A DNA stretch of 64,000 nt, from the NCBI GenBank assembly GCA_963971425.1, contig OZ020519.1, forward strand, positions 24,406,786-24,470,785, in the 5' to 3' direction. A program made the translations under genes and the position numbers. A model generated the notes under the pieces. It was given only the letters and a program-made list of their open reading frames with translations. It was not told the origin of the DNA and did no database searches. Position 1 is the stretch's first letter; each line of letters begins with the position of its first letter. Positions 28,437 to 64,000 of the stretch are shown piece after piece. The stretch comes from Bryoerythrophyllum caledonicum (taxonomy: Eukaryota > Streptophyta > Bryopsida > Pottiales > Pottiaceae).

Positions 28437-29819
28437 AGTGGTTCGTGCTTGGGTTGTGTTGGTATGTAGATTGAAACCGGTTCCAATGGACAAGCAATGA
28501 GAGTTTTTTTTTAATTTGTAGTATAAATTTTTACACAGTTTAAATTCGGTATTTGGACTAGATGTTCTCAGTTTCGGATGTAGATTGTCGCATTCTTTGT
28601 GCAGATTTAGGTCTAAACAGTGAATTTTGTAAACATTCAAGAGTGCTTGGATCCATATACGTAAAATCAGTGGAGTCATTCTTACTATTTTGATGATCAA
28701 AGTTGTTGGGTCACCTTGATAGACAACCTGGTTTTTTGGAGAAAGGAATGTTTGTGAAGATGGACGAGTGTGGGAATTGTGTTGAACATCGTCTATAGAA
28801 GCACCTCCAATTAATTCCTTAATCGAAGGGTTTTAGTTGTCCTACCATAACAGTAAGCCAAAAATAATGGAGACTAAAATTGACGTCACTCCAAGCAATA
28901 CCTTCTCCAGAGTATGGAATCTGCAATTTACAAGCAAGCGGATACATTTTAGCAATTTCTACTCCCACTTTGTGAGGCCAGACATATTATCACTAGTCAC
29001 TTGCGAACAGAAGCTGCCTCATTGCCGACAACAAAACTACACACCAAAATTACAGTACATCCTCCTAAACCAAGCAACCGATACATCACAAGAAGCCAAA
29101 ATTCAGCAAAAACTTGATTTGCGCAACATCACTTAGGAAATTCCAAGGAATGGAAGGAGAAAAACTAATCTTGCGGAAAGAACAAATACACGAATACCAA
29201 AAATCAGAAAATCACACAAATACCAAAAATTCACCAAATCAGTTGAACCTAGCTCAACCACCCCATCATCAACTTGTACACATAAGATTGTCTGCCACAT
29301 TGAAACAATGAAAAATCAATTGCATGCTTAACCAAACTCCTCAATGAGATGTCAACCCCACTTTTGCAGCAGAAGTATAACTCTAGGATATACTACAAGC
29401 AATGCTCTGAATTCCACACACAGCAAAGCAATCATGCATACCTGAATTCTTGCCACCTATTCTTGAAAGAGGAAAATGCAACCATAATACCAACCAGATA
29501 AACATTTATAAGTATTCCAAATTTTTAGAAAAAAAGTAATCCCCGATAACTTGACTTCTTTTATAGAAGTAGTCCGCGCACTGGAAACTGAAAGCTCTTC
29601 ATTGCAACATTGCTGAACTCGATCACCATATAAATCAAGAAGCTAATCAAACTAACTGACGAATCAAGAAGCAATAAATTAGTGGGTTTAAAAGGGGCTT
29701 ATCTGTTTGAAATTAGACTTCTCACTTCACCAAGCAAACACCTTCATAAACTAAAGCATTCTGATCTAGGGAAGAAAATAAGAAGTTGATTACTACATTT
29801 CATTACAAGTCGATAAATA
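28437..29819. other. 3' UTR and spacer inside the left duplication unit
   Basis: Downstream sequence of the secreted-protein gene and the spacer before the kinase remnant. It matches 34020-35340. No additional gene. Confidence 0.5.
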
Positions 29820-33910: not shown

Positions 33911-34015
33911 GGTGCAATCTATAACTGCTATTTGGCGATCCAACGGGAGGTGTTGGAGGGAGACTTGTTGCATGATGTGCTTTAGTTGGGTCCAACTGAC
34001 CTTGAAGGCGTTGTG
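33911..34015 (+). pseudogene. Orphan exon 3 of the secreted-protein gene
   Basis: Copies 28260-28360 of the gene at 26716-28436 (RNCLLAIQREVLEGDLL region). A TAG codon is present where the parent reads leucine-arginine after DVL, and the end of the exon is missing. Exons 1 and 2 were outside the duplicated segment, so no protein is expected. Confidence 0.8.
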
Positions 34016-35944
34016 TTTGTATCAAGATGAATACTGGTCCCAATGGACAAGTAATGAGAGTTTATTTTAATTTGTAGTTTAAATTTTTACACAGTTTGAA
34101 TTCCGTTTTTGGACTAGACGTTCTCGTTTTCGAATGTGGATTGTCTCATTCTTTGTGCAGATTTAGGTCTAAACAATCAACCTTGCAAACATTCAAGAGT
34201 GCTTGGATCCACACACGAAAAATCAATCGAGTCATTCTTACTCGTTTCATGATGGGTCACCTTGACAGACAACTTGGTTTTCTGGAGACAAAAGGAATGC
34301 TTCTGAAGATGGACTAGTGTGGGAATTGTACAACTCGTCTATAGAAGCGCCTCCAACTAATTCCTTAATACAAGGGTCCTAGAGGATAAAATTGAAGCAT
34401 AATCTGATCAACAACTACATCACGGTGTGGAATCTGCAATTTTCAAGCAACCGGATACATTTTAGCAATCTCTACTCCCTCTTTGTGAGGCCAGACATAT
34501 CATCACAGGTCACATGTGAAGAGAAGCTGCCTCATCGCCAAAAGCAAAACTACACAGCAAAATTACAGTACGTCCCCCTAAACCAACCAACTGATACACC
34601 ATAGGAAGCTAAAAATCAACAAAAACTTGGTTTGTGCAGCATCTCTAAGGAAATCCAAGGCATGGAAGGAGAAAAGCTACTCTTGCGACAAGAACAAATG
34701 GTGTTCGAAAACATCAGAAAATCACACAGAAAACTCACCAAGTCAGTTGAACCAAGCTCAACCACCCCAGTCGGAAATGGCACACATAAGATTGTCTGCC
34801 ACATTCAAACAATGTAAAATCAACTATATGTTAAAATAATTTCTAAATGAGATATCAAACTCCCCTTTGCAGCAGAAGAGTAACTCTAGTATCTACTAAA
34901 AGCAATGATCTGAATTCCACACACAATAGAGCAACCAAGCATACCTGAATTCCTGCCACCTGTTCTTGAAAGAAGAAAATGCAATCACAATACCAACCAG
35001 ATAAACATGTATGAGTATTCCAAATTTTCATAGCAAGAGTTATCCCCGATAACTTGACTTCTTTTTATAGACTCAGTAGGCCGCGCACTGGAAACTAAAA
35101 ACACTTCGTTTCAACATTGCTGAACTCCACCACCATATAAATCGAGAAGCTAATCAAACTAGCAGATGAATCAAGAAGCACTCGATAAGTGAATCACAAG
35201 GTTTAAAAGGGGCTTATTTGTTTGAAATTGAACTCCTCACTTAACCAAGCAAAACACCTTCATAAACTCAAGCATTATGATCTAGGGAAGAAAATAAGAA
35301 AATGAGTACTACATATCATAACAAGTGGATAACTACTAAAGGAAATGATAAATACTTCACCTTTGCTAGATGAGCTCGTGTGCGGACTCGATTGGAGGCT
35401 TTATCCGACTCTTCAAACCAGACGGGACGCTGGGCATTAAAAGCACGACCAGGAGTACTGCACCCAAGTCAAACATTGATAACTTCAAGGTTCAAAACAA
35501 AGAAAGATAACCTGCATATATAGAAAAAGTTAATAGAAAAAGTTATTGATCTGATTGATGAAGAGGAGAAAGACCAAATTAGTCGGAAGGAGAAAGCCGT
35601 ACCCCACTCCCTCCGCAAACGAATGGGCCATAGAAACAAGGAAATACCACTCCGTGTAGGAGACATCCTCAGTTCTGACTTCAGATGAATACGGAAATAA
35701 AACCAGTGCTCGGAGCACTTCCTCCCTTAGTAACTGATACTCTGCCGTTTGTGTATGCTTTGGCTCAATAAAATCGCCGTCTTTGGGACCCTTGTAATAC
35801 CCATCGCCCCAATCCAATATGCTGCCACAACCAAGAGCTAAGATAAGTTCCACCACAAAACCTGAACCTTCTAGTTGTTGATGTGGACTCATCAACGAAG
35901 AGTTTCAGACATCTTCCACCCTCAGTAGATCATTACACACCACG

Positions 35945-38790
35945 TTAGGAATATTCAAACAAGTGTAGAAAGCCAATTATCTGATTCATGAATGCTTTGG
36001 AAAACACAAATTCGGCACATGGAACAAGACAGCAGGCTCCTTGATAGGTGCCATCGTCAGAACTGAGAGGAGAAGATGGAGCTGATGAAATCTGCTCCAC
36101 AGTACAAAACGTTAAGATGGTGCAAACGTACGAGTCCCCGGAAGTCGAGACCGAGTGCTCCCAGAAGATGCCGTAGGTCCAATATACTGAACAAAGGTCC
36201 TTCACAAGCCATTGCAAGAGGATCGAGCTCTTCCCGAGCGAGAGGCGGCTTAAGCTTTGGTTGGAACTGATTAAATTATAGTCCTTCATTAACGGTGCCG
36301 ACACACACAGGTTCGGCAGCACCGTCTTCTGGTCCTGGGCTCCCACTTCAGTCTCGCCCACTTGAACCAATCTCTGGAGCAGCTGAGAGGCAGTCCTGCG
36401 CGTCTCCTCTGTGATTCTAATGTCCTGCAAAAACAACAGAAATCTTCTAACAAGGTTGCGTGATGCTAGACTCAGCTGTCCAAAGAAATGCTCAAGGCCC
36501 AGCACAGCGCATTCACATGCGCTTCTCACGAAAGCGTGGTATCACTAAAACATGACCTCCTCCACAATGTCAGGAATGGTCGGCGAATGCTCTCAGAGAC
36601 GCTCTTACCTTGGCCAGTTTCAGCACAACCTTAATCCATCTGTACGTATATTGTGCCGCTAGATTTCCTGCTGGAGGGTGCCCTCCACTCGAACCAGCCG
36701 CACCCTTAGCCAAAACTGCATTACCGCGTACCCTTCGTCCATGGTTCCGCCCAACCGGCACCGTATCGGCCTCTCTTCGCCTCATTGACACCAGAGGGCC
36801 ATTAGAATTGGGCAAGCCCGAAAACACAGGTTCCTCAGAAGCGTCTTGGTGTGGCGCAATAATGAAGCGATCTGTCAGTCGATCACCACCAGAATAGCTC
36901 CGCTCTTTGACACTTGGAATTGTATATTCCTCAGCCTCGCCTGGTGTACTTGCACCATGCCGCTCCTCCTGCTGCAGGGTCGATTGATGCACTTCAACAA
37001 TGGTTTCCTGCTCCTAACCAAAAGCAAGCTTAGTCACATCAGAGAAAGAATCATACAGAACCGGGGGCCTTTCACTTTCTGAGAATGCACCAATCTGACA
37101 AACTCACACAACTTGAGAGAAATTAGATCACCTCGTCTCCGTCAAACCACTCCTCTTGGTCCATCCCATTCATGAGTGCTTGCAGACGGGCATGAGACCA
37201 GTCACGTTCACGAGTCTCGAATCGCTTTTTCAGCATTCGATCGATGAATAAATCCGAACCAGGTGAATCCTCTTGCCTCACATGACTCGAAGTACTATGA
37301 TTTCTTAACAGCCCGTGCCTGAGCTTCTCAAGTCTCGAGCAGATGTCCAGAATACTCGGTCGTAGCTTCCTATCCGTGGCCCAACCCTCCTTGATCACAT
37401 CCGCCAGCTCCTTGGGAGTGTCGCTAGGAAGCTCTGGCCTTTGTCCACTGCAGATTACTCCAAACAACTCACTTCTCTTGACATGTTGAAATGGCTCACG
37501 GCAGGTAAGGATCACAGAGCACATCACCGAGAAGCTGTAAACGTCAGCCTTCAACCAATCTGCTCTGCCATTCGTGAATGCTTCCGGAGGCATGTACACT
37601 GTGGTGCCAATTTTGGGGCGCGTGATCGTATTGGACTTGCCTGCTTTCAGCTTCACTTTCGAGATGCCAAAGTCAGCCAATTTCACCTCCAGATTGTATT
37701 GCAAATCTGAACCGGTGGCCTTGCGAACAACCACGTTAGAGGTCTTGAGGTCACGATGCGCAACTCCGTGGTCATGCATATAGCACAAGCCGTGTGCAAT
37801 CTGCAGGATAACATCAAGAGCTAGAAAGAGGGAAGGTTTTGTTCCTATTTCTTCGAGACGCTCGATGAAGGTGGCAAGGCTGGTTTCCATTTGCTCCATG
37901 GCGATGAAATGCCCCGTAGAATGCTTATCCCTATACTTGTTGCAACAGAGAAACTTCACAATGTTTGGGTGGTTGAGGCTGGCCAAAATCTTCGCCTCCG
38001 CTAACCATTCCTTCTCGTAGCCCGCACCCTTGAACATTTTCTTCGCACAGGGGACATCAAACCAGGATGTCTTGCAAACATTGCCCCCAAGGAAATCCGC
38101 TGCGCCCCATTCATCATCAGGACCCTCCGCATCTGCCCACTGGTTGAAATACTGAACATCACAATCCTCATCAGGAGAATGCTGGAGAACATATCTCACT
38201 CTTCCCAGCAGATAAAGCGCCAGCCACCGAGACCGGATGGAGAAATTCACATCGTTCACTAAGCCATTGAGCCTTTCCTTGAGAGCAACTCGATCTTTGA
38301 AAACCTCATCCGCACCTGAAGGATCAAACGTTGCTGTCTCACGAAGATCCTCGCATAAAAACTCTTTCCTCTGCTTCTTATTCACGTCTTCAACCACTTG
38401 GAAGATGGTGTTGTACGATAGGCCTGCCTCCATCAGGATCTCCTTGAACGCCTCCTCGTTCTGGATTTGAAACGCAGATACTTGCCACCAATCTGGTTTG
38501 CAGCAATCCTCCACTAGTCGCCTCCCCTTCACGGACACTCGGTAGAAGTTCTCCAGTGCTGCACTGCAGGAAAGCAGGCCCATGTCATCCACCGAATCAA
38601 CCATGCGTTCAACACTTCGCATCGTCATCTTCAACTTGCATAACATGGTCCGACATTGATGTGGATTCAGGGGCTCCGAACGCGACGTCAGCTCACTAAT
38701 CCCCTGGATGTTTCTCCTCGAAAGATGCAAGAAATTTGTATGGGATGACGAATCCTTGCCGAACAGCCACGGCCACAACGACTTTGCCAT
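35945..38790 (-). CDS. TKL-type protein kinase with N-terminal helical region
   Basis: First exon 38790-37132 (553 codons, phase 0), second 37013-36609, third from 36424. The frame is then open to a stop at 35945. Residues 1-200 are mostly helical (ERMVDSVDDMGLLSCSAALE, DCCKPDWW), as in plant kinases with an MLKL-like N-terminal bundle. The catalytic domain spans about 230-495: lysine in VPCAKKMF (250/251), HRDLKTSN with Asp347, DFG at 373-375 and PPE at 401-403, so it should be active. The glycine loop is weak (LGGNVCKTSWF). The second exon is rich in Gln/Glu/Ser. Further coding-like sequence (EWYFLVSMAHSFAEGVGYG, 35590-35650) suggests exons continue to about 35340. I could not resolve the 3' end. 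A soluble signalling kinase is likely. The substrate is unknown. Confidence 0.78.
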
Positions 38791-48597: not shown

Positions 48598-51500
48598 TAT
48601 CCAGTAACAAGTAACCAATATCGAAGGACCCTAGGTCCCAAAAAGTCCCAAAAGAGGGAGGGCAAGTACGGTGAAATGCAAATGCAAGTGTAGATCTATG
48701 GAGAGGGGTTCGAAGCATCAGGAAGGAGTTGGTTGTTTTCAAGTTTACATTTATATAAGAGTATCGACATAGCATGTTGAATTGCAATAATGTTAATATT
48801 TGAGAAAGTGGTTTTGATTGAGGTGATGGGAATTTTAAATGTTTCTTCAAGGGTTGTCATTGAGGGAATGAAGGTGGTGGCTCTAGCACCCGCGGTGATG
48901 ACAATGAGGGGTTCTATTTTCCATCCTAGTGCTTGAATGTCGTCAAGTAGTGGTTGGTATTTATTTGTTTTGTTTGCAATAGTGTCCGGAGAGAATCTAT
49001 CATTGCAATATGTGAATTCAATAAATTGGATGGTGAGACAAGGGTCTATGTCTTGGTGGGGGGTCTTTATATGAAAGTTCTCTAACACATAGTAGGTCCG
49101 GTTTGAATCTTGCATTACAGTGGCATCTTTGAGTATGACATCTGCAGGGTAATAGCCAAGGAGGGACCGTGTTTTCTTGTGGGTTGTCATTAAAGGTTCC
49201 GGCATTTCTGAGAATGAAACACCGGGATTTGGTTGATGATATAAGTAGTTTACGAATAGCCCATACGGCTTTGTTATGTCTTTTGACAATTAGTGAGTGT
49301 ATATGGGGGTTTTGGCACTTGAGTAAGACATGTAGCCATGTGTCTGGGTCCGTGGTGTTGCAAATTGGACATGTAATTGTAGGAAATCTTTCTATTCCAA
49401 AGAAGAGTTGTTTGCGGGCATTACCCATGTATTGTCCGGTGCGGAATTTGATTAGGCATGTGATTTGTGGATCCGTTATAATGGGGTTTTTCCAAAAATT
49501 GTTGGATAGTACGTTGTGAATGTTTGGGTTGCCAGTCCATTTATCAATATTGGGGAAGTTCTCTGTAACTTTTTCTAGGTTATTTAGAAGATCATGTTTT
49601 TTGAGGTATTTGTCCAAGAAACGTATGGGGCCTTTATCGGGAGTTTCGCCCATAGAGGGCCATTCATATCTATGAAAGTAATATGGGGTGGCATGGGCGT
49701 GTTCGTATGGGTGTTCGGCATTCTTGTGGGTTTTTCTCTTCCTTCCTTTGCTAGTTTGTCGGCTTGTTCATTGCCGTCGATATTAGCATGAGCTCGGACT
49801 TTGTGGAGTGTAGTGATCTCTGTACGGTTTTGGAGCATTGCAACCAGAGATGTAAGGATAGTTTTATCCGGGTGACTGTTGTGTAAAGTGGGGTGTTTAA
49901 TGTGTGTATTAAGGAGATATAATACATTTATGCAGTCTGTAAAAATGTGAGCCGGTTTGTTTGGGTATTGAGTGGTGATTATTTTGAGGGTTTTATGTAT
50001 AGCCATCATTTCGGCTCTTAGAATATTTTGGAGTCCATGTAGTCTTTTGCCTAATTTAATTTGTTTGGTTGAATTGTATATCCCATAGCCGGCTTTTTCT
50101 CGGTGCCAATGTCCCGGGCTTACTTTGGTTGGTTCTTTAAAGGAACCGTCAGTGTAGTAGCTAAAGTTGGGGTCAAATTTAAGGTCTGTATTAATTTGGT
50201 AGTAGGAGAGGGGGAGGCTTAATTTGGTAATTGGTGTTGTGGAGATGTTTGTGTGGGGGGTTTTAGACCATTTTTTGTTGCGGTTTACACGGGTTGAAAT
50301 GGGTGTGGGAGAGGCAGTTGCGGTATATATCTTGTTAATGTTTAGATTTTTGCTATTAAAGTGAGATGAGTGAGGTTTTCTAGATTACCTATTTCTTGAG
50401 TTTGGTGATGTATGCATAGGATACGTAGGGTTGCTGGTTCAAGGCGGGGTGTTTGTATATGCGGTGGTATAGTGGGTTCTTTGTAAGTCATAGAGTCCGC
50501 TTCAAATAGTGCTATGATGTGAGAGTTCGGGAATGGGCCTAAGTGTGGGTTAGAGTTGTGGTACCAATGAGTGTCGAGAGTGATAATAATGGTGATGTTG
50601 TGGTCAGGATCATTGTTTGCCGCTAGGCGTGCCCAATGTGTTGCTTGTTGTGTTTCTTCTTCGTTGTGAGGGTGTGCAAGGCATGTTCCGCTCCACCTGT
50701 AATCAAAAGCTTTTCCAAGAGAACCAAAAATCTTATCACGTTCAAATGGGGAGTAGTATTTTGAGATTTTTGTGGAGCATGTAACGGAGGATGAGAAGTA
50801 TGAATGTGTTATATTCAGAGATGTAATAAGGTGGTCTAAGATAAGATCGGGTAATGTGTAGTGTGCATTTTTAAGGGGGTCATTTTTGGGTATTCGGTAG
50901 TTATATCTTTGGTATAGCCAAACAATTTCGGTTTCAAATGATTGGGGTATTGGTTCTATGTTAATGGGGGTTTGTAATGCGTTGTGATATTGGTTCCACA
51001 GCCATTGTAGTCTAGCGAGTGGTATGGTTATTAGATGTCTCCCATTATCTTCGTATATGTCGGCATTATCTTGTTGTATTTTGATTGTGTTTATTTGTGT
51101 GAAGATGTCTGTTTCGGGATTGCATTCGGTTGTAAAGATGTTAAGGAGGGGGATAATAAGAGGTGGCATGACAAATCTTCTATCTCAAGGTTGTGCTGGA
51201 GGGTGGTGTGATTGTATGATATTTAGGTAATAATTGTTTTGAGTTCTGAGGTAGTATTGTGTGAGGATTTCGGTGTTATGTATGGAAGTATTTGGGTTGT
51301 GCCAGGGGAAAAGATTTCTTTGTGGGAGCCATTTGGTGTAGGTGGTGTTATTGTAGGACTAGTGGTATAGGTATGCCGTATATTGTTTGCTTATGTTGTA
51401 AGAGTCAATGTGCTTTTTATGTTTGTGCGCGGTTATGTTGTTTATTGGGTGTACGGAAGGATTTTTTAATATATGTGGTGGGGGGGTATATGGTCGTGAA

Positions 51501-52430
51501 TGTGGCGGTTTTGGAGGGATTAATGGGAGGTTGATGTCGTGGTGGGTGTCATTGTGATCGATGATGTATGAGTCTTTAAGTGTGTACGGTGTGGCGTGAG
51601 TGGTGCAGGGATTGGGGCATATAGGGAGGCATGGAGGGTGACAAAATAATTGTTTAGCAATATTTAGTGCACTTTTTATTAATTTGTGGGGTGTACCGTA
51701 GAATGTTTTATAGCTCTTGTCGTCCATAAGGTGTGTTCCATTTGGTAGTGTAATTTGCTTTAGATCGGTAATGTTTGCAGAGAAAAGTTTTTTTTTTTTT
51801 TTTTTTTAGGAGTTTGGCAGATAATTGTCGGTCAAGTCTAGGGAGGTTATGTATTTCATTTGCCCAACTTTGTTCGAGCGGCGCTAGGCCTAATAGGAAA
51901 TCTTCTAGTGTACTTTTTAGAAATGTTTGACCTTCTGTTTTGAGTAAAAAAAGTGTGCGGGTAATGGGAGACCGAAGGCAATCAATTTTTTTAAGTCTTT
52001 GGAGGTATTTTGCTCCTCCGTAACTGGCAAGGATGTGCCGGAGGAGTCCACTATAGATTAGTCCTAGTCGTCCCTTGTCGTTAAGTGCATTCTGGAGTTG
52101 TTCTCCAATGCAACGTAGATAGGCATTTTTTGAGGGAGAAAGCTTCTAATCCGAATAGTTCGTGGGGGAGTTGTGTTATGGCATTGGGAGTGCAATTAGG
52201 GAGTCCGCATACTTTTTTTTGTATGGCTATGATTTTTTTATCAAGTTTGTTTATGGCGGGCATGGAATAGGGGACCGCATAGAAACTATATGAGATACCC
52301 GGACGTATGACGGTATCAATCATTTTTATTTTTTTTGTTGCAGTGTGGCCGGACATAGTGTAAGTTCTTTGCATTGTTTAATAAGTTTTGTAGTAGTAGC
52401 GTGAATTTGAATTTTCTATTTTAACGGAGA
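48598..52430 (-). mobile_element. 5'-truncated LINE, copy 1 (RT end, RNase H, CCHC finger, nuclease-like end)
   Basis: Minus strand. The copy begins within the C-terminal part of the reverse transcriptase (52374-52081: KKIKMIDTVIRPGISYSFYA, LDKKIIAIQKKVCGLPNC), nearly identical to 63540-63740 of copy 2. A linker follows (51727-50342, with ERDKIFGSLGKAFDYRWSG). RNase H is at 50009-49584 (TLHKVRAHANIDGNEQADKL). A CPICNTTDPDTWLHVLLKC finger lies at about 49300. The last frame (49289-48696) has PADVIL, IEFTYCND and KTNKYQPLLDDIQALGW, like the PD-(D/E)XK endonuclease of RLE-type LINEs. The parts lie in different frames, so this copy is dead. It shows the 3' half that copy 2 must have beyond the window. 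Confidence 0.82.
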
Positions 52431-52839
52431 AGGTAAATGTTATTTGCAATCCTACTGGCTGAGACCGAGGCCGATCAAAATCCTCGATGGCTGAGTAGAG
52501 CTCCGAAATTTCTGGTGAGGAGGGGTGAGGGACTCAGTCTCAGAGAGTGGAGACACGAACAACAGGAGGTTGCTGGCCCGTTGTATGTCCCTAGTGTGCT
52601 TCAGATTTGAGAGGAGGGGAGGCTATCAGTTACATGTGTTGGGCAGGGACATTTTGAACACTAGATCTGCAAAAGGTGAACCGTGGAAGAGCTGCTGAAG
52701 TCATTTTTGAGTGGTGTTTAGATCTGAAGCGGGGAGACACACGTGTTGGTACACAGATCTGTACTTCTCAGCTCATCATACGGTAGGATCTGGAGTAGAT
52801 CTAGAGAGGGTTACCGAACCTGAACGCCCCCCCCCTTGA

Positions 52840-54960
52840 GTCCCACCGCCCTTCTCCAATCCAGACCTCGTCAACACCATTGAGAACAACAACGAGTCAA
52901 GAGTGCAGCGTTGCTGCCATCGCATCAACGCCCTTCATCACCTTCAGGCCACCTCTTACCCCCCCCTCATCTCCTTATTTCTTCCTTATTGCATCATTGT
53001 TAGACTCACGTTATCATTTTGCTCTCTTAGTAACACATACAAAGTACAAAATAGATCTAACATCGCTTGTATAAGTTGTTTGTGCATCAGATCTGAAAGA
53101 CAACACTGCAGAACAACCTCTGAAGTGAAGGAAGACACGATATACCTCACAGATCTGCCCCAAGGCAACATCAACGCACCATATCAGGCTATCTCTACTC
53201 ACTTCCATCTCTTTTTTGCACTAGTTCAGCTGATCCATAGCAACACTACACACTTCAGCACATCCACACACACTAGAGGTAGTACACAGAAATCTCACTA
53301 TGTATACACATGCACAAAGCTCTACATCATAATACTAACAGAACACTTCAATAAGCTTGTGTGTATAGATCTCGGGCGGAAGCGCTCAAAATCTTCTCCA
53401 GATCTGAATCTACCTTCGCTCCAACAACAAGGAAGCACACCATCAACACCGCAACAAACGACACGGCAACAAGAGCGGACGAAAATACAACGCAACAGCC
53501 AACACATCTGCGACAACCCCATCTACAGCACAACAGGACCTCACAGCAAAGATTCGACAATACAAGGTGACAACAACAACATACAACACGCAACGGAGAG
53601 CACCTCCAGACCAGAGAAGACAAAGGTGGACTGCTGCCCCTCCACAACAAAGATCTGCAACCGACGTCATCCCCGCACCAAGATCGCAGCACGCAACAAC
53701 ACTGCATCTGGAAGTGAAGTGCAACAACTCCACAACAAAAACCGATTCAACTCATCATCGAACCGAGGATCAACCCTCATCTACACAACAGGGAGTACAC
53801 TCAACACACCTTCTCCTCTCACTTCCTTCACTCGCATTCCTTACCTCCATCTATCCCCTACTGCAGCCCTCCCTTCCCCTCCCCTGTTTCTTCCCACGCC
53901 CTCACCACTCCGCCCACCCCTCCCACCCCTGTCCATCTCCCCCTCCCTGCCCCTCCCACTACTCTCCTCACTCACTCTGTTTCCCTCCCCTCTCTCCTCT
54001 TCCTCCCCGAACACCCCCTCCCCACTACTCTCCTCACTCTCCATAGACAACGACCATACTGATCAGTATACTGTCCCACTCGATCCCTGCAGCGACCGTG
54101 CTGGTCAGCCCACAGACCCCACCGTAACCCGTAGCGACTTAGCTAAAACAGATAGCGACCCCGTCGATTTGTATAGCGACCCTGCTAACATCCGTTACGA
54201 CCCTATCAAGTCTCACCCAAACCCTACTGCTCGTGCCAGCGACCCTGCTGCCCGAGGCAACGAACCTGCTACCTGTGCCAGCGACCCTACTGATTATACT
54301 AACGACCCTACTAATTGTGCCAGCGACTCTGCGAATTATACTAACGACCTTGCTGATAAAACCAGCGACCCTGTTGCTCACTTCAGCGGCCTTGTTGATT
54401 GCTCCAGCGGCCCTGTTGATCGTTCCAACAACCCTGTTGATCGCTCCAACAACCCTGTTGATCGCTCCAGCGACCCTGTTAATCGCTCCAGTGACCCTGT
54501 TGATCACTCCAGCGACCCTGTTGATCGCTCCAGCGATCCTGTCAATCGCTCCAACGACCCTGTTCCTTCTGCTAACGACTGTGTTCCTTGTGCTAACGAC
54601 TGTATTTCTTGTGCCAGCGACCCTGTTCCTGATGTTAGCGACCCTGCTGTTTGTACCAGCGACCCTACTGACTGTGCCAGTGACCCTGCTACTGGTGTTA
54701 ACGACACTGCTGCTTGTACCAGTGACTCTGCTGATTATGCCAGCAACCCTGCTGCTCGTGCCAGCGACCCTGCTGCCCGTGTCAGCGACCCTGCTGCTCG
54801 TGCCAGCGACCCTGCTGCCCGTGCCAGCGACCTTGCTGCTCGTGCCAGCGACCCTACTAATCCTCATAAACACCCTGCTGATTGCAACAGAGACCAAGGT
54901 GATCCCTGTAGCGACCCAATAACATTTCAATACGACCTCCCCTCACAGGACAGCACAAGT
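52840..54960 (+). other. ATG-free open frame upstream of ORF1, with heptad repeats
   Basis: The ORF1 frame is open from 52840, yet contains no ATG until 54961: about 700 codons without methionine or stop. It includes a serine/proline/leucine-rich part (53860-54030). It also has a run of 21-bp units (about 54130-54880) encoding SDPVDRS, ASDPAAR and similar heptads. Either this is an untranslated leader that happens to be open, or it is translated from a non-AUG start (GTG at 52903 is one candidate). Confidence 0.6.
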
Positions 54961-56616
54961 ATGGACCAGTGGAGTAGTAGACGCACTCTCATGTATGGAG
55001 ACGCCATGGAGGTAGAAGCAAGCGGTGAGACACACAAAAGATCCCCGAGCATTGCCCCCACAACAAGCCAAGACGAAGTATCCCTTTCCAACAAGAAAAA
55101 GAAAAGTTCCAACAATGAAGGTATGATGCACACTCTTGACCTAGATGCATCCTCCCTCAAATTTTGGATGGGCTTTCAAGTGATGGAAGATATGGCCAAA
55201 GAGGAGGGACTTGAGCCACTAACTTGTGATGAATCCATACCTAGCATGATCACAAGAGGAATTAGAGAAATGGAGGCCAAGGAAATCTCCTTAGCAACTC
55301 CGGCATTCCCAAGAATCCCCCAAATCCTCTACCCTTGTGCAAGAAAAGGAATCGTGGGCCAGCACCTCAATGTAACACAAATCCCATTTGACATCCCGGT
55401 TAATGACACTACGGGGCTTGCCGTAGACTTTCATGTTTCAATTCATTTTGAGTTATCTAACCTTGTACTCATGCATGATGATGTCAAAGCTATGGTGATT
55501 GATAGGTTAAAGTTCATGGAGATTGAAGTCGGCAAAAAGGTAATTGATCCCATCTCCATCCTTTGTATGAGTTTAAAGAATGCCGGGAAAAAGGGAGTAT
55601 GGGCGGGGGTAGTCAAATTGCACTTGCATAAGCCAGAGATAGATGGCATTGGACTTCTCAAAGGTCTTAGACCCTTCATTTTAAAACTAGACAAACAATA
55701 TGCTCTTGGCAAAGTTTGCAAAACATACCATGATATATCAAGAAACTCTAACCTCTCTATCAAAATAAAAAGTGAATCTCTTAGAGGCATGACCGCTAAT
55801 GATCTTTTTGTGGAGATCCTTCACAATGGTTTTAACCGTGGGCTTGAGTTTGAAGTAACAAGTGTGCAGAAAATCAAAGAGGAATCCCATGCCTTCATTA
55901 TTGCACCAACCCCACAACAAGCGGCAAAAATCAAGCTCCACAAAGTGGCAACCAACCACGAGCTTTTGCAACCAACGAACATTGTTGGAACTACATCGAA
56001 GGGCATCAACCGTGAGAGTAAGGCAAAGAAGGACGCCATTACCTTAACCCTATCACCACTACCTATTCGTATGAGCATGGTTGACACTAGTGAAGAGATT
56101 CACAAAATCATGGGAGCGGGTAATGCCACTCACATTTGGTTCCATCGGGATGATGGGATTAGACACAATGGTAGTGCTAATGTTCATTGCATCAACCCTA
56201 TAATCTATAGGAAGTTTGTAGGGAAAGTTATCAAGATGGAAGGACATTACGTGGACTTTGCACCACACCGAAGAAGTCTTGATGGAGTAGAGCCACCGAC
56301 CAAGGAGCAAATTGTGGAATTTGGATTCCTAGATGTTAACAAAGCTATTGTTAACACCGTGGAGGCCTTCAAGATTGATGAGCCAACAAATGTCCTCACG
56401 AAGAATGACATCATTGCCATCGTGGATTCCAAGGTGGAAGAAAACAACAAAAAAATAAGACTAGAGACGCAAGCATATGCGGACAAGAAACATGATGAGT
56501 TGAAGGCCCAAATGATCACCATCCAAGAGTCAATGAGCACGGCCCTCGCATCCTTGCAAGCCATCACCAAAGTTATGACCACCCCAAGAATTGAAGGTGA
56601 GACGTCAAACATGTGA
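54961..56616 (+). CDS. LINE copy 2 ORF1 protein (ATG-started part)
   Basis: 551 residues from the first ATG in frame. A basic stretch SNKKKKSSNN near residue 40 could bind nucleic acid or act in nuclear import. The body (about 60-480) is a folded region of mixed strands and helices (VWAGVVKLHLHKPEIDGIGL, FEVTSVQKIKEESHAFIIA). This is consistent with an RNA-binding ORF1 protein, though I cannot assign a named fold. The C-terminus (about 490-545) is a charged helix, likely coiled coil (VEENNKKIRLETQAYADKK), which may serve oligomerisation. It ends ATGTGA at 56611-56616 and overlaps the opening of the ORF2 frame by about 20 bases. No gag-knuckle zinc fingers are seen. Confidence 0.75.
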   Translation: MDQWSSRRTLMYGDAMEVEASGETHKRSPSIAPTTSQDEVSLSNKKKKSSNNEGMMHTLDLDASSLKFWMGFQVMEDMAKEEGLEPLTCDESIPSMITRGIREMEAKEISLATPAFPRIPQILYPCARKGIVGQHLNVTQIPFDIPVNDTTGLAVDFHVSIHFELSNLVLMHDDVKAMVIDRLKFMEIEVGKKVIDPISILCMSLKNAGKKGVWAGVVKLHLHKPEIDGIGLLKGLRPFILKLDKQYALGKVCKTYHDISRNSNLSIKIKSESLRGMTANDLFVEILHNGFNRGLEFEVTSVQKIKEESHAFIIAPTPQQAAKIKLHKVATNHELLQPTNIVGTTSKGINRESKAKKDAITLTLSPLPIRMSMVDTSEEIHKIMGAGNATHIWFHRDDGIRHNGSANVHCINPIIYRKFVGKVIKMEGHYVDFAPHRRSLDGVEPPTKEQIVEFGFLDVNKAIVNTVEAFKIDEPTNVLTKNDIIAIVDSKVEENNKKIRLETQAYADKKHDELKAQMITIQESMSTALASLQAITKVMTTPRIEGETSNM

Positions 56617-56741
56617 AGAAGGAAGACCGCAAGACAAAAGGTATCATACACATACCATCCCTTCTTATACACAAGACCCACACATTATACAATAGAAGAC
56701 AATACAAGGTAGAATACTTGATAGCCTACATAGTAGAATAC

Positions 56742-59700
56742 ATGGTAGAATACTTGATAGCCTACATAGTAGAATACATGGTAGAATACATGGTATTGAA
56801 CAAAATAGTCTACATGGCACAATATATAAGAAAATACTTGGTCGTATACACAGACGTACACCCCCTAGGATACACATACTTCAATACATACACCCTACCC
56901 TCATGTTGTATTAAAAATAAATACATAAAGTATACCAAATATATACTATCTTGCACAAAAATACCTGGTATGAATACTGATACACACACATGTACAATTA
57001 CGGATACAAATACTGATTTGCATACAGATACAAATACTGATCAGAATACGGATACGAATACTAATCTGAATACGAATATAAATACTGATATGTACATCAA
57101 TACTAATACTGATACATATATAAATACAAGTACTAATACCAATACCAATACCCATACGTATGCTAAAATAAAAATGGGGACACGCACTAATATAAACATA
57201 AACATAAACACTAGTACTAAGCCAAACACAACTATACACACATACACAAAGACAACTACACACCACCAAAAAATAATAATACACATACACACATACAAAG
57301 ACAAATATACACAACCAAAAGAAAAGTACAAAACAAAACACCAAAACCACACACAAAAACAAGCAATCCTAAAACAAAATAAAAAATCCCTCCTACTACA
57401 AACTACTCATACTCAATGGAGAAGACAAATACACATCCACCCTATAGTATACCATGCTACACAAAACAACATAGATCTTCTTACTAGTATTTACTATGTA
57501 GCAAGTAGAAAAGACATACACATGCTTTCAAACAAACACAACCTCAACAACATAAAAATAATAAAAGCTCTAAAATTCACACAAAAATCAAAAATTATGA
57601 AACACAATATCAAACCCACACATTATAAACTTCTACTACTTGTAGGCGGAGAATTAGAAATAAATCCGGGACCGTATACGATCAAGTATACAAATACAGC
57701 TTCATATACATGTACGGGGACAGATACATATATGGATACATATACAAATACATATCAGAATACGGACACAAATACATCTACAAGTACAGATACAAATACA
57801 AGCATAAACACATATACGGAAAAAAATACTAATGTAAATACAAATACAAGTAAGGATATGGACACGGATACAGATACAGGTATAAATACTCAAACAAGAA
57901 CTTATCAACCATTGCAAAAACCAATATACAAAATAGAAAGAATGATAATAATAATATACTACTTCTCACACAAACTAAGTAAAAATTCCAAAAAGAAAAG
58001 TATCAAAACCAAAATAAAAAATAAAAGGAATAAGAGAAAAGATGGGATTAAAATAAATAATAGAAGGAAAAAGAAAATAAGTATCATAACTACATATAAC
58101 AAAATAGGAAACAATATAAATGAAAACAATCATAATTTTTTTGTAATAAAGATACATAAGGGTAGAAGGGATTCTAAACCCAAAAACCATCAAAAGGCAA
58201 GGAATACTAGAATGGATAAAAATAGAAAAATGAAGGAGAGTAAAAAGGGATATAATAAATTAAATAGAAAGAAGATAGATATTTATAAAATTTCAGAAGT
58301 CTTAATTAGAGCAAGTAATATTAAAAATAAAATAACAAAAATGGAGCGGATATGTAAGAAGAAAAGAAAGGGTAAAGTAGAAAACCATTATCATAAGAAA
58401 AGAAATAAGAAGAACATAACAATAAACAGTAGTACTAAAAATAGAAAATGCTCCCTAAGAAATTCAAAAATAAGGGATGGAAAATGCACAAAATTAGTAA
58501 TGGGAATTAGTTATAATAAGAATACAAATGTGAAGAACATAGCTATAAACAGCAGTACTAAAAATAGAAAATCCTTCCTAAGAAATCAAAAAATAAGGGA
58601 TGGAAATTGCACCAAATTAGTAATGGGAATAAATAACAATAAGAATACAATTAAGAAGAATATAGCTAAAAACAGCAATACTAAAAATAAAATATGCTTT
58701 CTAAGAAATGCAAAAATAACGGATGGAAAATTAACCAAACTTGTAATGAGAAACAAAAATGACAGAGTAAAAATAAATAGAGAAGATAGGGATAATAAAA
58801 GAGTACAGATTAAAAATAGAAATTGGAATATAAACTACATGGATAAATGGAAAATTAATAGTAATATTAAAAACTATATATATAAAGTTGGGGAGAGTTT
58901 GCGATTAAATAGTAGAAATTTGTTGAGAGTATGTAGAATTATTAAAATAGGAGGTGGGATTCATGTTTCGCCGGCCGGATGGGCGCCGAAGGCTCCAAAA
59001 ATAGACTTTCTAAAAATAGAAATTCTAATAAAAGTAAGAATATATACGAATCAGATTGAAATAAATATCAATCTGTTTTTAGAAATCATAGTTTTAGACA
59101 AATTAGGTTTAGAAAGAAATCTTTTAGAAAACTCATTTTTTCAATATACATATACTGATACGTATTCTGATACGTATACTGATACATCCACCGATGAGTA
59201 TACTTATAAATATACTGATACAAATACTGGTATGTATATAAATACAAATACTTATACTTGTACAAATGTAAATACCAATACAAATAGTGGTACGTGTACT
59301 CATACGAATACTAACACAAATACTAACAAAGATACTGATACAAATACCAAGACAAAAACCGTGACTTATACTAATACAAACATACAAAAGAATACTAATA
59401 TAATACCACATAAAACTACATACACACACACAAAGACAACCACACACCATCAACGAAACACATACATATACATACACACATACAAAGACAAACACACACA
59501 ATCAAAAAAACACAAATACCAAAGCCACATTCAAAAACAAAAAATTCTAAAACAAAACAAGAAACCCATCTACTACAAACTACTCATATTAATTGGAGGA
59601 GACATGGAGACTAACCCAAGACCCATGCCGAACATATTAAAAAGACACCCCGCTTCGCACAAAAAGTATACCAAAACATATTTTATACCAAATACTAATA

Positions 59701-62700
59701 CAAACATCAAAACAAACAATTGTACAAACCACAAAGTATATAATAACACCGCATATGAAAAAAAGGATTTAAAAGCCACTTTAAAAACCAACATAAACCC
59801 ACATACAAATAGTCTTAAACATAATAGTTACATATGCACACGGACAAAAACAACCAAGGTAAAATACAACCAATTTTACATACATCCATACTCTACTAAA
59901 ACAAAAACAACCACAAAAAACACATGGACTAAAAATAAACTAAAGACGAAAACAACTACACCTACTATAAAAATAAATAAACCCACAACTCATACACAAA
60001 ATACAAATATCCACCTACCCCTAAACCAACAAGTCATTAATAACACAATAAAGCTTTTAAAATACACCACTAAACATATATACCACAAACTTCTACTACT
60101 TCTAGGAGGAGACATTGAAACCAACCCGGGACCCATGCCCAATATACTAAAAAGACATCCTACACCACATAAGAAAAATGCCAAAATCTACTTTATACCT
60201 AATACCATAAAACTCCAACCAGAATATGAACACATTGCAAAACCCTTCGCACCATTTCTAAAAAACACACATACATTACACCACATACAAAACACTTCCC
60301 ACCCAAACATTGCCCAATACATACAACAAAAAAATACGCATCCACCACCCCACATCTTATATGCACTAATAATCACTACTCATCCAAACATAGATGAATG
60401 TAACCAACTTCTAAATCCACAAAATTGGAACACAATTACATGGACTAATACACTCCTACAAACCTTGCTAACCTTACAAAACCCACCAGAACGACACATT
60501 TACACTCCACACCCCTATACTGAATTCCTAGTAGACAACCAAAATATTATAAACCATGAGAACTCAATACATAAAAGACTATACGACTTCTTACATAGTC
60601 AAGACATACCACCCTCAAATGATATAATAAAACTAAAATTCCCTTACCTCCCTAACAACCTCATAAATGAATCACTAAAATGCCTAGACCCTATACCAGA
60701 ATACACCCACCCACCCCCACCTCTTCCCTACATCCCTCCTCAAAACCAAAATCAAAACATTAGACAAAACCAAGAAAATACATACATAATCACATGGAAT
60801 GCCTCCTCACTAAACACTGCCCTTCCTAGCTTACAAACTCTAGTCGCAAACACAGACACACCACCGGCTCTTATAGTTATACAAGAAACAAAACTAACCG
60901 CCACAAAATCTACAAAATATATACAAAATATATTTCAAGACTATAAACTCATCTTTAACAATACACATGCACTTACAAGATGCATGCAACAAAGGAGACC
61001 ATACACACCGGGCCGCGGTGGCCTCCTTACATTAATACACAAAAAATATACATTCCCCGGCAACATCAACAAAATCCCTACCCCAATGCACATATCACCA
61101 TACATTCAAATAATTAAAATCACTAATCACCCACTACAATCGTGGTTAATCTTTCACATGTATATGCCATCCCATCCCGAAGATACTAGATTTCTCTTAG
61201 ATATACAAAACACTATTTCAACCCATATTAATAATCATCCCAATCATACATACCTATTATGTGGAGACTTCAATAGAGACATAGCGCTAATTGGCCGCCA
61301 AAATGGAAACCATCACACCCCCCCTCAAAACATTGATTACCAATGGCGCCGCTTCACAGAAAACTTAAGCTTCACTTACATCAATACCGATACACAATTC
61401 TCTAGACAAGGTGGCTACAATTATAGTGATTGGAGTCTAATAGATGGTTTCTATATAAATACAAACAACAACACACAATACACCTCCACAACAAACAAAG
61501 ATATTATTCTCAATTCGGACCACTCACCCGTACAACTGCACATCCCAAATAACACACTAATTAGTAGAACTCCTACAATCCCAAACAAAGACACTATACG
61601 CATACTCAACCCCATCCCAAAAACCAACATAGAAAAATTCAACACAAAATTCTTCGAAGAAAACACCGTACAAATAGACTCCCTCATAAACACTCTTGAA
61701 ATCAATAGTCAATTAACACAAACACAATGGCAAGAAGCATGCCACTCTCTAGACAAACTCATCAATAAAATCTCTGATACACTAGAACAAACTTGTAGAG
61801 CACACCCAATACCCCAAATGACAAACAGAACCTCTCAACAAGGTGGGTATCTACCCCGCAAACTTTCTAAAACTTGGAAACAACACTTAACCACATACCA
61901 TACCATACGTAAAACCATTAGAATTGTAAAAAACAACCCTCAATGGCGTAACCACCCCATACACAACGAACTACTAAATATACAACACATCCAAATCCCT
62001 ACTCCGCCGCCTCCGGACCTTCCCCACGATACATGGATAAAAGATATCGCGATAATTGCAAAAAATGCCAACATACAAGCCCGGAAAATAATCACAAAAT
62101 ACACAAAAGAAAACATTAAAAAAGCCATCTCAAAATACAGACAACTATACGAAATTAGCCCCAAAAAAATTAACAAAAAAGTCTTTAAAAACCTTGAATC
62201 CCCACCAATGGATTGTATCAAAGATCAATATAATAATATTCTAACTAACCCCGAAGACATTGCGAATGAAATATTCAACCAACAAACAAAAACCAATAGA
62301 CCAACAATACCAACATGTAATTACCAGCCACAACATACAATAGAATGCACATGTGCAATACGCCAATACCCTTGGCACGACCTAGACGGATATACCCTTG
62401 ACAAACGGGGCGAACCAGAAATTCCACTACATAAATACCTCAACAGAGCCACATACGATACATGCCTCCAAAATCTTGGAAATAATAAAGCCCCAAGCCC
62501 AGACCGCATACCAAATTCAATACTGAAAAACATGCCTCCAAGATTTCATAAACTACTATTCCTATTCTTTTCTCACTGCTATAAACAAAAACAAATACCA
62601 AATTCATGGAAAACAAGTGCAACAATTCTACTATACAAAAAAGGCGATCCATTCATGCTACCCAATCATAGACCAATTGCACTAGCTAACACAATATATA

Positions 62701-64000
62701 AGCTTTTTACCAGTACACTCACCCACATACTATCCTCATACGGCGAAAAATTCAAAATCCTACATGATAGTCAAGAAGGATTTAGAGCGGAGAGAAGTAC
62801 CGCACGGCAAATACAAACTATAATAGCCGCATTAGAAGACGCAAAATTTACTAACCAAGATATATACATACTATACGTGGACTTCAAAAATGCCTTTGGC
62901 TCAATTGATCATGCCAGACTTCTAGCAATAATGTCAGACCTTGGCTACCCAAAAGAGGCAACTACACTTGTTGGAAACATCTATTCCCAATCATCTACTT
63001 GCTATATCGGCGAACACTTTGGAAAAACAAAACCTATACCCATCCAAAGAGGAACTATACAAGGGGACACCCTTAGCCCATACTTATTTATTATATTTTT
63101 AGAACCACTACTTAGATGGCTAGAAAGAGGTAATAATGGATATACTTTCGGCACATCACAAGTCACAATAAACTCCGCCGCATACGCAGATGACCTAGCC
63201 ACCATAACTAACAAAATCAAATCAATCCAAATACAACTCCATAAAATTGATAGATATTGTAAATGGGCTGGCATGGATGTGGGAGTTCCAAAATGTGCGG
63301 CTACCGGATGCCCAAACAAATCTAAATTGAACCCTACCACTTTCAAAGCCCTAATGCAAACCTCTAACATCAACTACCGCAACCAACCAATCCCTATACT
63401 ACACCAAAACGAACCATACATATACCTAGGTACAAATCTTGTTCCCTCACTAAAATGGAAAATCCAAATCCACACTACAACCACAAAGCTCATCAAACAA
63501 TGCAAAGAACTAACAACATGCCCAGCCACCATGAAACAAAAAATAAAAATGGTTGATACCGTACTACGCCCAGGTGTGGCATACAGTTTCTACGGTGTAC
63601 CATACTCTATGCCAGCTATCAAAAAACTTGATAAAAAAATAATAGCCATACAAAAAACCATATGTGGATTACCAAAATGTATGTCAAACGCAATAACCCA
63701 ACTACCACATAACCTATTTGGACTTGAAGCTTTCTCCCTCAAAAACGCATACCTCCGATGTATAGGCGAACAACTGCAAAATGCTCTAAACGATAAAGGA
63801 AGACTTGGGAAAATATATAATGGATTAACTCACTATGTCCTTGCCCAATATGGTGGCGCTGAAAACATACCGAGAATTAAAAAAAGTGACTGCATAAGAT
63901 CACCAATAACACGAACATTCTTCTTATTAAAACATATAGCTAAAGCCCATCTTAAAAGTACGCTCCCGAACTTCCTCACTAATCCTACGACACTAGAAAT
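56742..64000 (+). CDS. LINE copy 2 ORF2 polyprotein (2A motifs, APE, RT), 3' end outside window
   Basis: Frame open from 56595 with the first ATG at 56742, giving 2,419 codons to the window edge without a stop. Residues 1-300: short VEY/IAY repeats, then (D/N)TNT-rich tracts. A 2A-like motif ends at residue 311. A lysine/asparagine-rich part follows with three 41-residue repeats (58416-58784). The T/N-rich block repeats, with 2A-like motifs near 960 and at 1122-1131. APE endonuclease about 1350-1600: TWNASS, IQETKL, GDFNRD (1508) and SDHSPV (about 1592). RT about 1860-2340: NNKAPSPDRIPN, FRAERSTARQI, VDFKNAFGSIDH, QRGTIQGDTLSPYLF and YADDL (2148). Copy 1 predicts RNase H, CCHC and a second nuclease further on. 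Whether the 2A sites cut is not shown by sequence alone. Confidence 0.88.
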   Translation, partial: MVEYLIAYIVEYMVEYMVLNKIVYMAQYIRKYLVVYTDVHPLGYTYFNTYTLPSCCIKNKYIKYTKYILSCTKIPGMNTDTHTCTITDTNTDLHTDTNTDQNTDTNTNLNTNINTDMYINTNTDTYINTSTNTNTNTHTYAKIKMGTRTNINININTSTKPNTTIHTYTKTTTHHQKIIIHIHTYKDKYTQPKEKYKTKHQNHTQKQAILKQNKKSLLLQTTHTQWRRQIHIHPIVYHATQNNIDLLTSIYYVASRKDIHMLSNKHNLNNIKIIKALKFTQKSKIMKHNIKPTHYKLLLLVGGELEINPGPYTIKYTNTASYTCTGTDTYMDTYTNTYQNTDTNTSTSTDTNTSINTYTEKNTNVNTNTSKDMDTDTDTGINTQTRTYQPLQKPIYKIERMIIIIYYFSHKLSKNSKKKSIKTKIKNKRNKRKDGIKINNRRKKKISIITTYNKIGNNINENNHNFFVIKIHKGRRDSKPKNHQKARNTRMDKNRKMKESKKGYNKLNRKKIDIYKISEVLIRASNIKNKITKMERICKKKRKGKVENHYHKKRNKKNITINSSTKNRKCSLRNSKIRDGKCTKLVMGISYNKNTNVKNIAINSSTKNRKSFLRNQKIRDGNCTKLVMGINNNKNTIKKNIAKNSNTKNKICFLRNAKITDGKLTKLVMRNKNDRVKINREDRDNKRVQIKNRNWNINYMDKWKINSNIKNYIYKVGESLRLNSRNLLRVCRIIKIGGGIHVSPAGWAPKAPKIDFLKIEILIKVRIYTNQIEININLFLEIIVLDKLGLERNLLENSFFQYTYTDTYSDTYTDTSTDEYTYKYTDTNTGMYINTNTYTCTNVNTNTNSGTCTHTNTNTNTNKDTDTNTKTKTVTYTNTNIQKNTNIIPHKTTYTHTKTTTHHQRNTYIYIHTYKDKHTQSKKHKYQSHIQKQKILKQNKKPIYYKLLILIGGDMETNPRPMPNILKRHPASHKKYTKTYFIPNTNTNIKTNNCTNHKVYNNTAYEKKDLKATLKTNINPHTNSLKHNSYICTRTKTTKVKYNQFYIHPYSTKTKTTTKNTWTKNKLKTKTTTPTIKINKPTTHTQNTNIHLPLNQQVINNTIKLLKYTTKHIYHKLLLLLGGDIETNPGPMPNILKRHPTPHKKNAKIYFIPNTIKLQPEYEHIAKPFAPFLKNTHTLHHIQNTSHPNIAQYIQQKNTHPPPHILYALIITTHPNIDECNQLLNPQNWNTITWTNTLLQTLLTLQNPPERHIYTPHPYTEFLVDNQNIINHENSIHKRLYDFLHSQDIPPSNDIIKLKFPYLPNNLINESLKCLDPIPEYTHPPPPLPYIPPQNQNQNIRQNQENTYIITWNASSLNTALPSLQTLVANTDTPPALIVIQETKLTATKSTKYIQNIFQDYKLIFNNTHALTRCMQQRRPYTPGRGGLLTLIHKKYTFPGNINKIPTPMHISPYIQIIKITNHPLQSWLIFHMYMPSHPEDTRFLLDIQNTISTHINNHPNHTYLLCGDFNRDIALIGRQNGNHHTPPQNIDYQWRRFTENLSFTYINTDTQFSRQGGYNYSDWSLIDGFYINTNNNTQYTSTTNKDIILNSDHSPVQLHIPNNTLISRTPTIPNKDTIRILNPIPKTNIEKFNTKFFEENTVQIDSLINTLEINSQLTQTQWQEACHSLDKLINKISDTLEQTCRAHPIPQMTNRTSQQGGYLPRKLSKTWKQHLTTYHTIRKTIRIVKNNPQWRNHPIHNELLNIQHIQIPTPPPPDLPHDTWIKDIAIIAKNANIQARKIITKYTKENIKKAISKYRQLYEISPKKINKKVFKNLESPPMDCIKDQYNNILTNPEDIANEIFNQQTKTNRPTIPTCNYQPQHTIECTCAIRQYPWHDLDGYTLDKRGEPEIPLHKYLNRATYDTCLQNLGNNKAPSPDRIPNSILKNMPPRFHKLLFLFFSHCYKQKQIPNSWKTSATILLYKKGDPFMLPNHRPIALANTIYKLFTSTLTHILSSYGEKFKILHDSQEGFRAERSTARQIQTIIAALEDAKFTNQDIYILYVDFKNAFGSIDHARLLAIMSDLGYPKEATTLVGNIYSQSSTCYIGEHFGKTKPIPIQRGTIQGDTLSPYLFIIFLEPLLRWLERGNNGYTFGTSQVTINSAAYADDLATITNKIKSIQIQLHKIDRYCKWAGMDVGVPKCAATGCPNKSKLNPTTFKALMQTSNINYRNQPIPILHQNEPYIYLGTNLVPSLKWKIQIHTTTTKLIKQCKELTTCPATMKQKIKMVDTVLRPGVAYSFYGVPYSMPAIKKLDKKIIAIQKTICGLPKCMSNAITQLPHNLFGLEAFSLKNAYLRCIGEQLQNALNDKGRLGKIYNGLTHYVLAQYGGAENIPRIKKSDCIRSPITRTFFLLKHIAKAHLKSTLPNFLTNPTTLE
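57627..57674 (+). other. 2A-like motif 1
   Basis: Encodes KLLLLVGGELEINPGP, in frame with ORF2. The 2A consensus is D-x-E-x-N-P-G then P. Here the first acidic residue is Glu, but NPGP is intact, so ribosomal skipping between Gly310 and Pro311 is plausible though perhaps inefficient. Confidence 0.75.
58416..58784 (+). repeat. Three 123-bp coding repeats in ORF2
   Basis: Starts at 58416, 58539 and 58662. Each encodes about 41 residues (NSSTKNRK, then RDGKCTKLVMG). The divergence grows from unit 1 to unit 3. The region is highly basic, which fits nucleic-acid binding. Confidence 0.8.
59577..59624 (+). other. 2A-like motif 2 (NPRP)
   Basis: Encodes KLLILIGGDMETNPRP in the same frame. The essential glycine of NPG is arginine, so skipping is not expected. 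The surrounding module copies the one near 57230-57430. Confidence 0.75.
60087..60134 (+). other. 2A-like motif 3 (canonical DIETNPGP)
   Basis: Encodes KLLLLLGGDIETNPGP, a textbook 2A core with a hydrophobic lead-in like that of animal LINE 2A sequences. Skipping would free a product starting PMPNILKR that carries the APE and RT domains. Confidence 0.9.

Follow-up and report, generated by a model that had tools for sequence, protein, structure and literature searches.

A conserved 2A-like site lies downstream of differing 5′ halves and ahead of a near-identical enzyme core in a LINE of a probable plant host

Introduction

The LINE L1Tc carries a 2A sequence at the very N-terminus of its single open reading frame (ORF), which also encodes an APE endonuclease, a reverse transcriptase (RT) and an RNase H. 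Human LINE-1 ORF2p has neither a 2A nor an RNase H, and no N-terminal extension of the kind described below. A 2013 study by Odon reportedly describes 2A-like sequences in APE-type LINEs of multicellular organisms. We know of no settled reason why LINEs keep 2A.

The 2A-bearing L1Tc/Ingi LINEs of trypanosomes are cited in the available portions of PMC11512398 and PMC4981915. The same portion of PMC11512398 attributes multiple 2A sequences in picornaviruses to indels affecting the 2A part of viral polyproteins. Exchange of modules is described for CR1/L2 LINEs, where ORF1 evolves in a reticulate manner and passes between lineages while ORF2 remains tree-like (PMC4120745, available portion). A survey states, in its available portion, that 2A is functional in plants and that use by plant viruses was not found (PMC12846837).

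Results

Extent and surroundings of the element

The window, which is the whole 64,000-nucleotide stretch of DNA analysed, was placed by genome search at C7:24406786-24470785 of a 437-Mb assembly of 894 contigs. It holds most of a real, young and unusual LINE of about 15 kb (Table 1). The element is flanked by a 13-bp target-site duplication, TTCTATTTTAACG, at 52414 and 67407, which is a hallmark of APE-type non-LTR retrotransposons and defines its span. The preliminary description, drawn from the window, had placed the element at 56595..64000; the element itself stands, but its real start is near 52427, it has an ORF1, and it continues 3.4 kb beyond the window, into the following 6 kb of the chromosome, which was also read.

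The LINE is inserted within an older minus-strand relative, whose two halves are 66-77% (67412-69935) and 50-77% (48705-52436) identical to ORF2. The 3′ ends of the LINE (67164-67406, in L029) and of the minus-strand relative (near 48.5 kb) both carry a G+C-rich hairpin followed by GTTCTTC, and inspection by eye found no poly(A) tail at either end. The host is probably a plant, because the window contains malectin-like and kinase genes, which we take to be a plant signature. The malectin-like gene lies at 19428-20951, and a tandem duplication (28453-32238 and 34010-37802, 85.6% identical) overlaps the kinase gene at 37123-38790.

Table 1. Coordinates of the LINE, its parts and its flanks, in window numbering
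Feature	Position	Strand	Remarks
LINE	~52427-67406 (52427..64000 in window)	+	~14.98 kb
5′ copy of 13-bp target-site duplication, TTCTATTTTAACG	52414..52426	.	
3′ copy of target-site duplication, TTCTATTTTAACG	67407-67419		Beyond window, in L029
Older relative of the LINE, 3′ part	48705..52436	-	RT end, PCIF1-like domain, RNase H
ORF1 from first ATG, 551 aa	54961..56616	+	Frame open further upstream, from ~52840
ORF2, 3,516 aa	56613..67163 (to 64000 in window)	+	Stop TAG 67161-67163; -1 frame relative to ORF1, overlapping ORF1 end
ORF2 N-terminal extension	56613..60110	+	Repeats of 12 bp (tetrapeptide) and three of 123 bp; contains the points where likeness ends between copies with different 5′ halves
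Relict 2A lead-in, core lost	57372-57427 (about)	+	Out of frame within open ORF2; +1 frame gives NPSYYKLLILNGED
Motif 1, ELEINPGP	57651-57674	+	Off-consensus at core positions 12 and 13
Motif 2, DMETNPRP	59601-59624	+	Next ~22 residues resemble the post-2A domain; motif presumed dead
Motif 3, KLLLLLGGDIETNPGP	60087..60134 (core DIETNPGP 60111-60134)	+	Conserved 2A nearest the endonuclease
Post-2A helical domain, ~219 residues	60135..60791	+	
APE-type endonuclease	60762..61556	+	Pfam at ORF2 residues 1393-1566; model residues 211-475 match APE/ExoIII folds
RT core	62646..63431	+	ORF2 residues 2012-2273

ORF1, the ORF2 frame and its domains

ORF1 has 22 homologues at 44-79% identity and gave no Pfam match above the cut-off. 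In the upstream part of its frame, 21-bp tandem repeats at 54162-54925 encode seven-residue repeats. ORF2 lies in the -1 frame of ORF1 with an overlap of 13-172 nt in all five copies examined that differ in ORF1 (window, L011, L013, L022 and L028), and no canonical slippery site was seen by eye at the junctions of these five. The first AUG in the ORF2 frame of the window copy is 128 nt past the ORF1 stop.

The ORF2 frame begins with GTG at 56613, the preceding in-frame stop ending at 56600, and runs for 2,462 codons without a stop to the window end, in agreement with the more than 2,400 first reported. Specifically, the 1,174 codons of 56613-60135 contain no stop, compared with 119 and 111 in the other two plus-strand frames and with a mean of 96.2 (minimum 76) in 100 dinucleotide shuffles. 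Base composition is thus not the cause of the open frame, and the extension before motif 3 is held open. The repeat units (12, 36 and 123 bp) are all multiples of three.

Downstream of the 2A-like motifs, Pfam identifies the endonuclease (Exo_endo_phos, 2.1e-5) and the RT (RVT_1, 5.7e-26) that the preliminary description had placed there, a combination that identifies an APE-type non-LTR retrotransposon. An RNase H follows the RT (PF00075, 2.5e-13), as in RNase H-bearing LINEs. Between the two lies a PCIF1_WW-like domain (PF12237; L029:2-3160 (+), residues 296-430 of the stretch, 8.8e-11), which also occurs in the older relative at window 50348-51184 (-) with 4.3e-9; both matches exceed Pfam's cut-off. 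An AlphaFold2 model that starts at the Pro of NPGP has a mean pLDDT of 81.6, and the folds that match its endonuclease and RT are those of APE/ExoIII and human L1 ORF2p. Modelled alone, the post-2A domain is helical, with a mean pLDDT of 89.1, and a fold search with this model gave no convincing match.

Three 2A-like motifs, one of them canonical

Motifs 1, 2 and 3 all lie in the ORF2 frame ahead of the endonuclease and RT, so the initial claim of a LINE with three in-frame 2A-like motifs holds. A loose 2A pattern applied to six frames of the 64 kb matches only at these three sites. Motif 3 follows the core rule (D/G/C/N)(V/I)ExNPGP given in the available portion of PMC12846837, and motifs 1 and 2 do not. 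In motif 1, two residues depart from the published core: E and L, which occupy core positions 12 and 13, are absent from the permissible variants in that portion of PMC12846837. Motif 2 has NPRP. Motif-selected sequences have the expected leucine-rich lead-in ending in (A/S/C)G: residue -1 is C in 41, S in 9 and G in 6 of 58, followed by G in 55. The window lead-in, LLLLLGG, is leucine-rich with G where A/S/C is usual, as compared by eye with the available portion of PMC12846837.

Three products, of about 310 residues, of 820 residues and an endonuclease-RT, had been proposed at first. Production of all three would need motif 1 to work with an E and an L outside the listed variants, and motif 2 is NPRP family-wide. 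Better supported by the motif sequences is one likely working site, motif 3, which would yield two products: one of up to 1,173 residues and one of 2,343 residues from the Pro of NPGP. Motifs 1 and 2, off-consensus across the family, look like leftovers.

Conservation of the motif 3 site

Relatives of the enzyme part, 115 in all, came from two protein searches (P0001-P0025 and P0075-P0164; the weaker P0026-P0052 were excluded). In these and in the window copy, the 2A site was located by a model of the downstream domain, which starts 11 residues beyond the core G and whose training rows were picked by motif, a mild circularity. Relatives were skipped (53) where the domain match starts too late (26) or is absent (15) or where the protein begins inside or after the core (12). 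NPGP is present at the motif 3 site in 52 of the 62 relatives that reach it, counting the last 2A copy in P0024 and P0158. Ten lack it, which counts against the reading favoured below: the site reads NLGP in P0022, P0104, P0140 and P0145, NFGP in P0144, NPDP in P0120, NLGL in P0151, NQGP in P0159 and NPGS in P0162, and P0121 has no motif, its frame apparently being shifted.

Pairwise identity among the 58 motif-selected sequences, window included, is 93% in the core, 47% in the domain that follows and 25-37% in the sequence that precedes the core. The site lies 204-219 residues from the endonuclease in all 13 measurable sequences (26 examined). A second, upstream 2A occurs in some relatives, with NPGP in P0015, P0019 and P0141 (H or E at core position 14), NPSP in P0024 and NQDP in P0158. 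Some of the weaker matches, other LINE-like proteins (P0032, P0036, P0040, P0044 and P0052), also have 2A-like motifs. Short recurring peptides, for example SAYRPRHK and ARPTGLA, are dispersed in the extensions of P0018, P0021, P0162 and other relatives.

The NPGP codons, which the preliminary description wished to see compared between genomic copies, differ in their fate. Motif 3 reads DIETNPGP in 20 of 20 other copies and in six of six further copies reaching the site. DMETNPRP is found at motif 2 in 18 of 20, L025 being out of frame there and L026 lacking the motif, and motif 1 is present in 11 of 20 (ELEINPGP in 10, ELEINLGP in L010) and missing in nine. The oddities of motifs 1 and 2 are therefore family features and not damage to the window copy. 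Agreement at motif 3 among near-identical copies says little about selection.

Near-identical cores carry different 5′ halves

A genome search with the enzyme part from motif 3 gave 8,451 candidates, of which 36 were scored; these best copies, window included, are 98-100% identical, with likeness extending through the RT. We read 10 kb around 20 of the 35 other copies. In 250-bp windows, each of the 20 shows 97-100% likeness to the window copy between motif 3 and +2,250 bp, and 92-100% over the 250 bp that precede motif 3 (92 in L022; 96 in L024, L025 and L028). This layout, shared by 20 of 20 copies from about -250 bp of motif 3 into the endonuclease and linker, together with the target-site duplication, rules out the earlier worry that an assembly error had joined unrelated pieces.

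Upstream, the copies diverge. ORF1 is 98.9-99.8% identical to that of the window in five copies, 52-56% in four, 45-46% in two and 33% in six; one has a 38% fragment, and L024 and L027, in which no ORF1 was found, look 5′-truncated. Thus 13 of the 20 have an ORF1 only 33-56% identical, joined at differing points of the extension upstream of motif 3. Likeness ends at about -2600 bp from motif 3 in class b, -2400 in class c, -2100 in L022, -1900 in L028, -1100 in L025 and -300 in L026. Not all copies show sharp limits, which counts against the reading favoured below: likeness in L022 is only about 76-85% across much of the interval from -2000 to -1000 bp, and in L025 a stretch of 78% lies past the limit.

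Seven distinct 5′ halves occur among the 21 copies, namely classes a (six copies, window included), b (six) and c (three) and the single copies L022, L025, L026 and L028; those of L026 and L028 are 82% alike over 1.5 kb. Compared with a single reference for each of classes a, b and c, the 5′ parts of the class members are 98.5-99.8% alike; the chimeras of these classes therefore multiplied once they had formed. Core regions compared between these classes show 98.3-99.6% identity, and in a tree of the core, classes b and c form clades (supports 0.893 and 0.962).

The searches revealed no donor, meaning a lineage that pairs a near-identical ORF1 with another core: of 11 copies with class-a ORF1, 10 have this core and one is not assignable. 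Four class-a ORF1 copies lack a top RT match; in three of them the sequence read shows the same core, one bearing an RT deletion. A search with class-b ORF1 gave 10 copies at 97-100% and a next match of at most 61%, again without a donor, which counts against exchange.

The copy search started at motif 3 and is biased against breakpoints further downstream. A genome search with the RT alone gave 70 copies at 98-100%, and upstream DNA was read for six beyond those already covered, chosen because their open frames were the shortest. Motif 3 is retained in three of them; in the other three, likeness ends near 60179, 61410 and 61579, inside the domain or the endonuclease, and these are apparently plain 5′ truncations. 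L039 has no LINE sequence before its limit of likeness, and in L034 and L035 a few relatives' alignments continue up to 88 and 177 bp past the limit, which was taken as overrun. A clear foreign LINE 5′ half downstream of motif 3 was thus found in none of 29 copies (20 + 3 + 6; 43 of the 70 RT copies fall outside this count), compared with 13 of the first 20 upstream of it.

Origin of tandem motifs and constraint on the extension

In one open frame, L026 contains a donor lead-in with GNIETNPGP, domain-model positions 1-204 of 215, recipient extension and the recipient GDIETNPGP. Tandem 2A motifs are explained by such a fusion, because it sets the donor's 2A and domain in frame ahead of the recipient's 2A. 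P0024 and P0158 likewise have a decayed upstream 2A plus domain, and in the window the next ~22 residues after motif 2 resemble the start of the post-2A domain. Class c has the sequence that directly follows window motif 1, but without a 2A, and the difference between classes a and c begins within about two bases of the end of the motif 1 NPGP. The simplest reading of these sequences is that donor 5′ pieces were joined repeatedly, cut at varied points past their own 2A. That there are several motifs looks like a side effect of the swapping of 5′ ends and not like design.

Of the shared one-base changes that the extension shows among classes a-c, none creates a stop, against an expected number of about 4.9. 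Near motif 3 the shared replacement/silent ratio is 0.60 of expectation; for the endonuclease and linker it is 0.18 (20 sequences, counting the window but not L026; p 0.008). The ratio near motif 3 does not differ from that of the post-2A domain (p 0.41). For classes a-c alone there is no difference from the endonuclease (p 1.0), and the pooled extension gives p 0.37. The extension is not simply neutral, which we count against the reading favoured below.

Discussion

The reading we lean towards, as rather probable, covers the observed organisation, the conservation of motif 3, the differing 5′ halves and the one fusion of a donor 2A to a recipient 2A: the 2A would set the N-terminus of the enzyme, and the core would thereby tolerate new 5′ halves. 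A ribosome entering ORF2 would first make the long, fast-evolving extension. At motif 3 it would skip the Gly-Pro bond and release the extension, and a separate protein would follow, starting with Pro and containing the endonuclease, RT and RNase H behind the conserved helical domain. Fresh 5′ halves, each made up of a 5′ region, an ORF1 and an ORF2 start, could then join at many in-frame points upstream of the 2A and leave the enzyme unharmed, because the 2A, and not the upstream sequence, would set its N-terminus. The joining route may most simply be template jumping between LINE RNAs during reverse transcription. A donor piece with its own 2A would produce tandem motifs, the upstream ones being free to decay. 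Whether the 2A is, more broadly, an insulator that makes the LINE modular, with many in-frame 5′ halves before a constant core and strings of 2A as a fossil record of swaps, we regard as evenly poised.

A polyprotein in which motifs 1 and 3 both work, giving an N-terminal product, an 820-residue middle product with its own function and the enzyme, strikes us as improbable. Motif 1 does keep NPGP in all of the 11 other copies that have it except L010, and so does the upstream 2A of P0015, P0019 and P0141, where position 14 is H or E; His there is active according to the available portion of PMC12846837. Against this, the E and L of motif 1 are absent from the variants listed there, many young copies have a replaced segment, or one of another length, ahead of motif 3, several of them lack motif 1 altogether, and motif 2 is NPRP almost throughout. 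We also think it unlikely that the 2A motifs are unused and that the enzyme starts, by reinitiation or internal entry, at an ATG often found right after NPGP (PMPNIL), the octapeptide being kept for other reasons. Met directly follows NPGP in 41 of the 58 motif-selected sequences, and the first AUG of the ORF2 frame in the window copy lies past the ORF1 stop; however, another residue follows in 17 of the 58, and an internal start does not require the upstream codons to be free of the ~96 stops expected.

Mosaics arise from recombination of either kind, and the differing 5′ halves could instead mark old LINE lineages whose cores were homogenised by gene conversion, with no new 5′ ends added. 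The core tree, which pairs the class-a copy L020 with L025 (local support 0.958), is in its favour. Yet the same tree resolves classes b and c as clades, and the alike stretch spans the extension into the endonuclease and linker in 20 of 20 copies and continues through the RT in the best 36, so that whole-core conversion would need to end upstream of the 2A repeatedly. Identical 5′ halves with clearly different cores were also not seen among the 11 class-a ORF1 copies, 10 of which share the core over the part read, and we give conversion only a small chance.

On the favoured account, seven 5′ halves among 21 near-identical cores, with joins that lie on the 5′ side of the 2A in the copies that were read, offer a testable reason for its presence: the 2A frees the core from the front end. 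If true, this would give a reason why retrotransposons retain translational recoding, and it would be a natural use of StopGo in a plant.

The occurrence of 2A in LINEs is already known; new within the open-access literature searched are the probable plant host, the one conserved site among decayed ones and the exchange of the front part. Like L1Tc/Ingi, the window LINE has a 2A upstream of an APE endonuclease, plus RT and RNase H; unlike in L1Tc, the 2A sits behind a 1,173-residue extension and an ORF1. It shares a 2A-like sequence in an APE-type LINE with the set ascribed to Odon 2013, and it differs from human LINE-1 ORF2p in having a 2A, an RNase H and an extension. As in picornaviruses (PMC11512398, available portion), several 2A NPGP occur in one frame and their number varies among relatives, but at least one case here is a foreign 5′ piece joined in a LINE. 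The window family also exchanges ORF1, as CR1/L2 LINEs do; unlike the exchange described for these in the available portion of PMC4120745, that of the window family is recent, with cores 98-99% identical, and its limits lie inside ORF2, upstream of the 2A.
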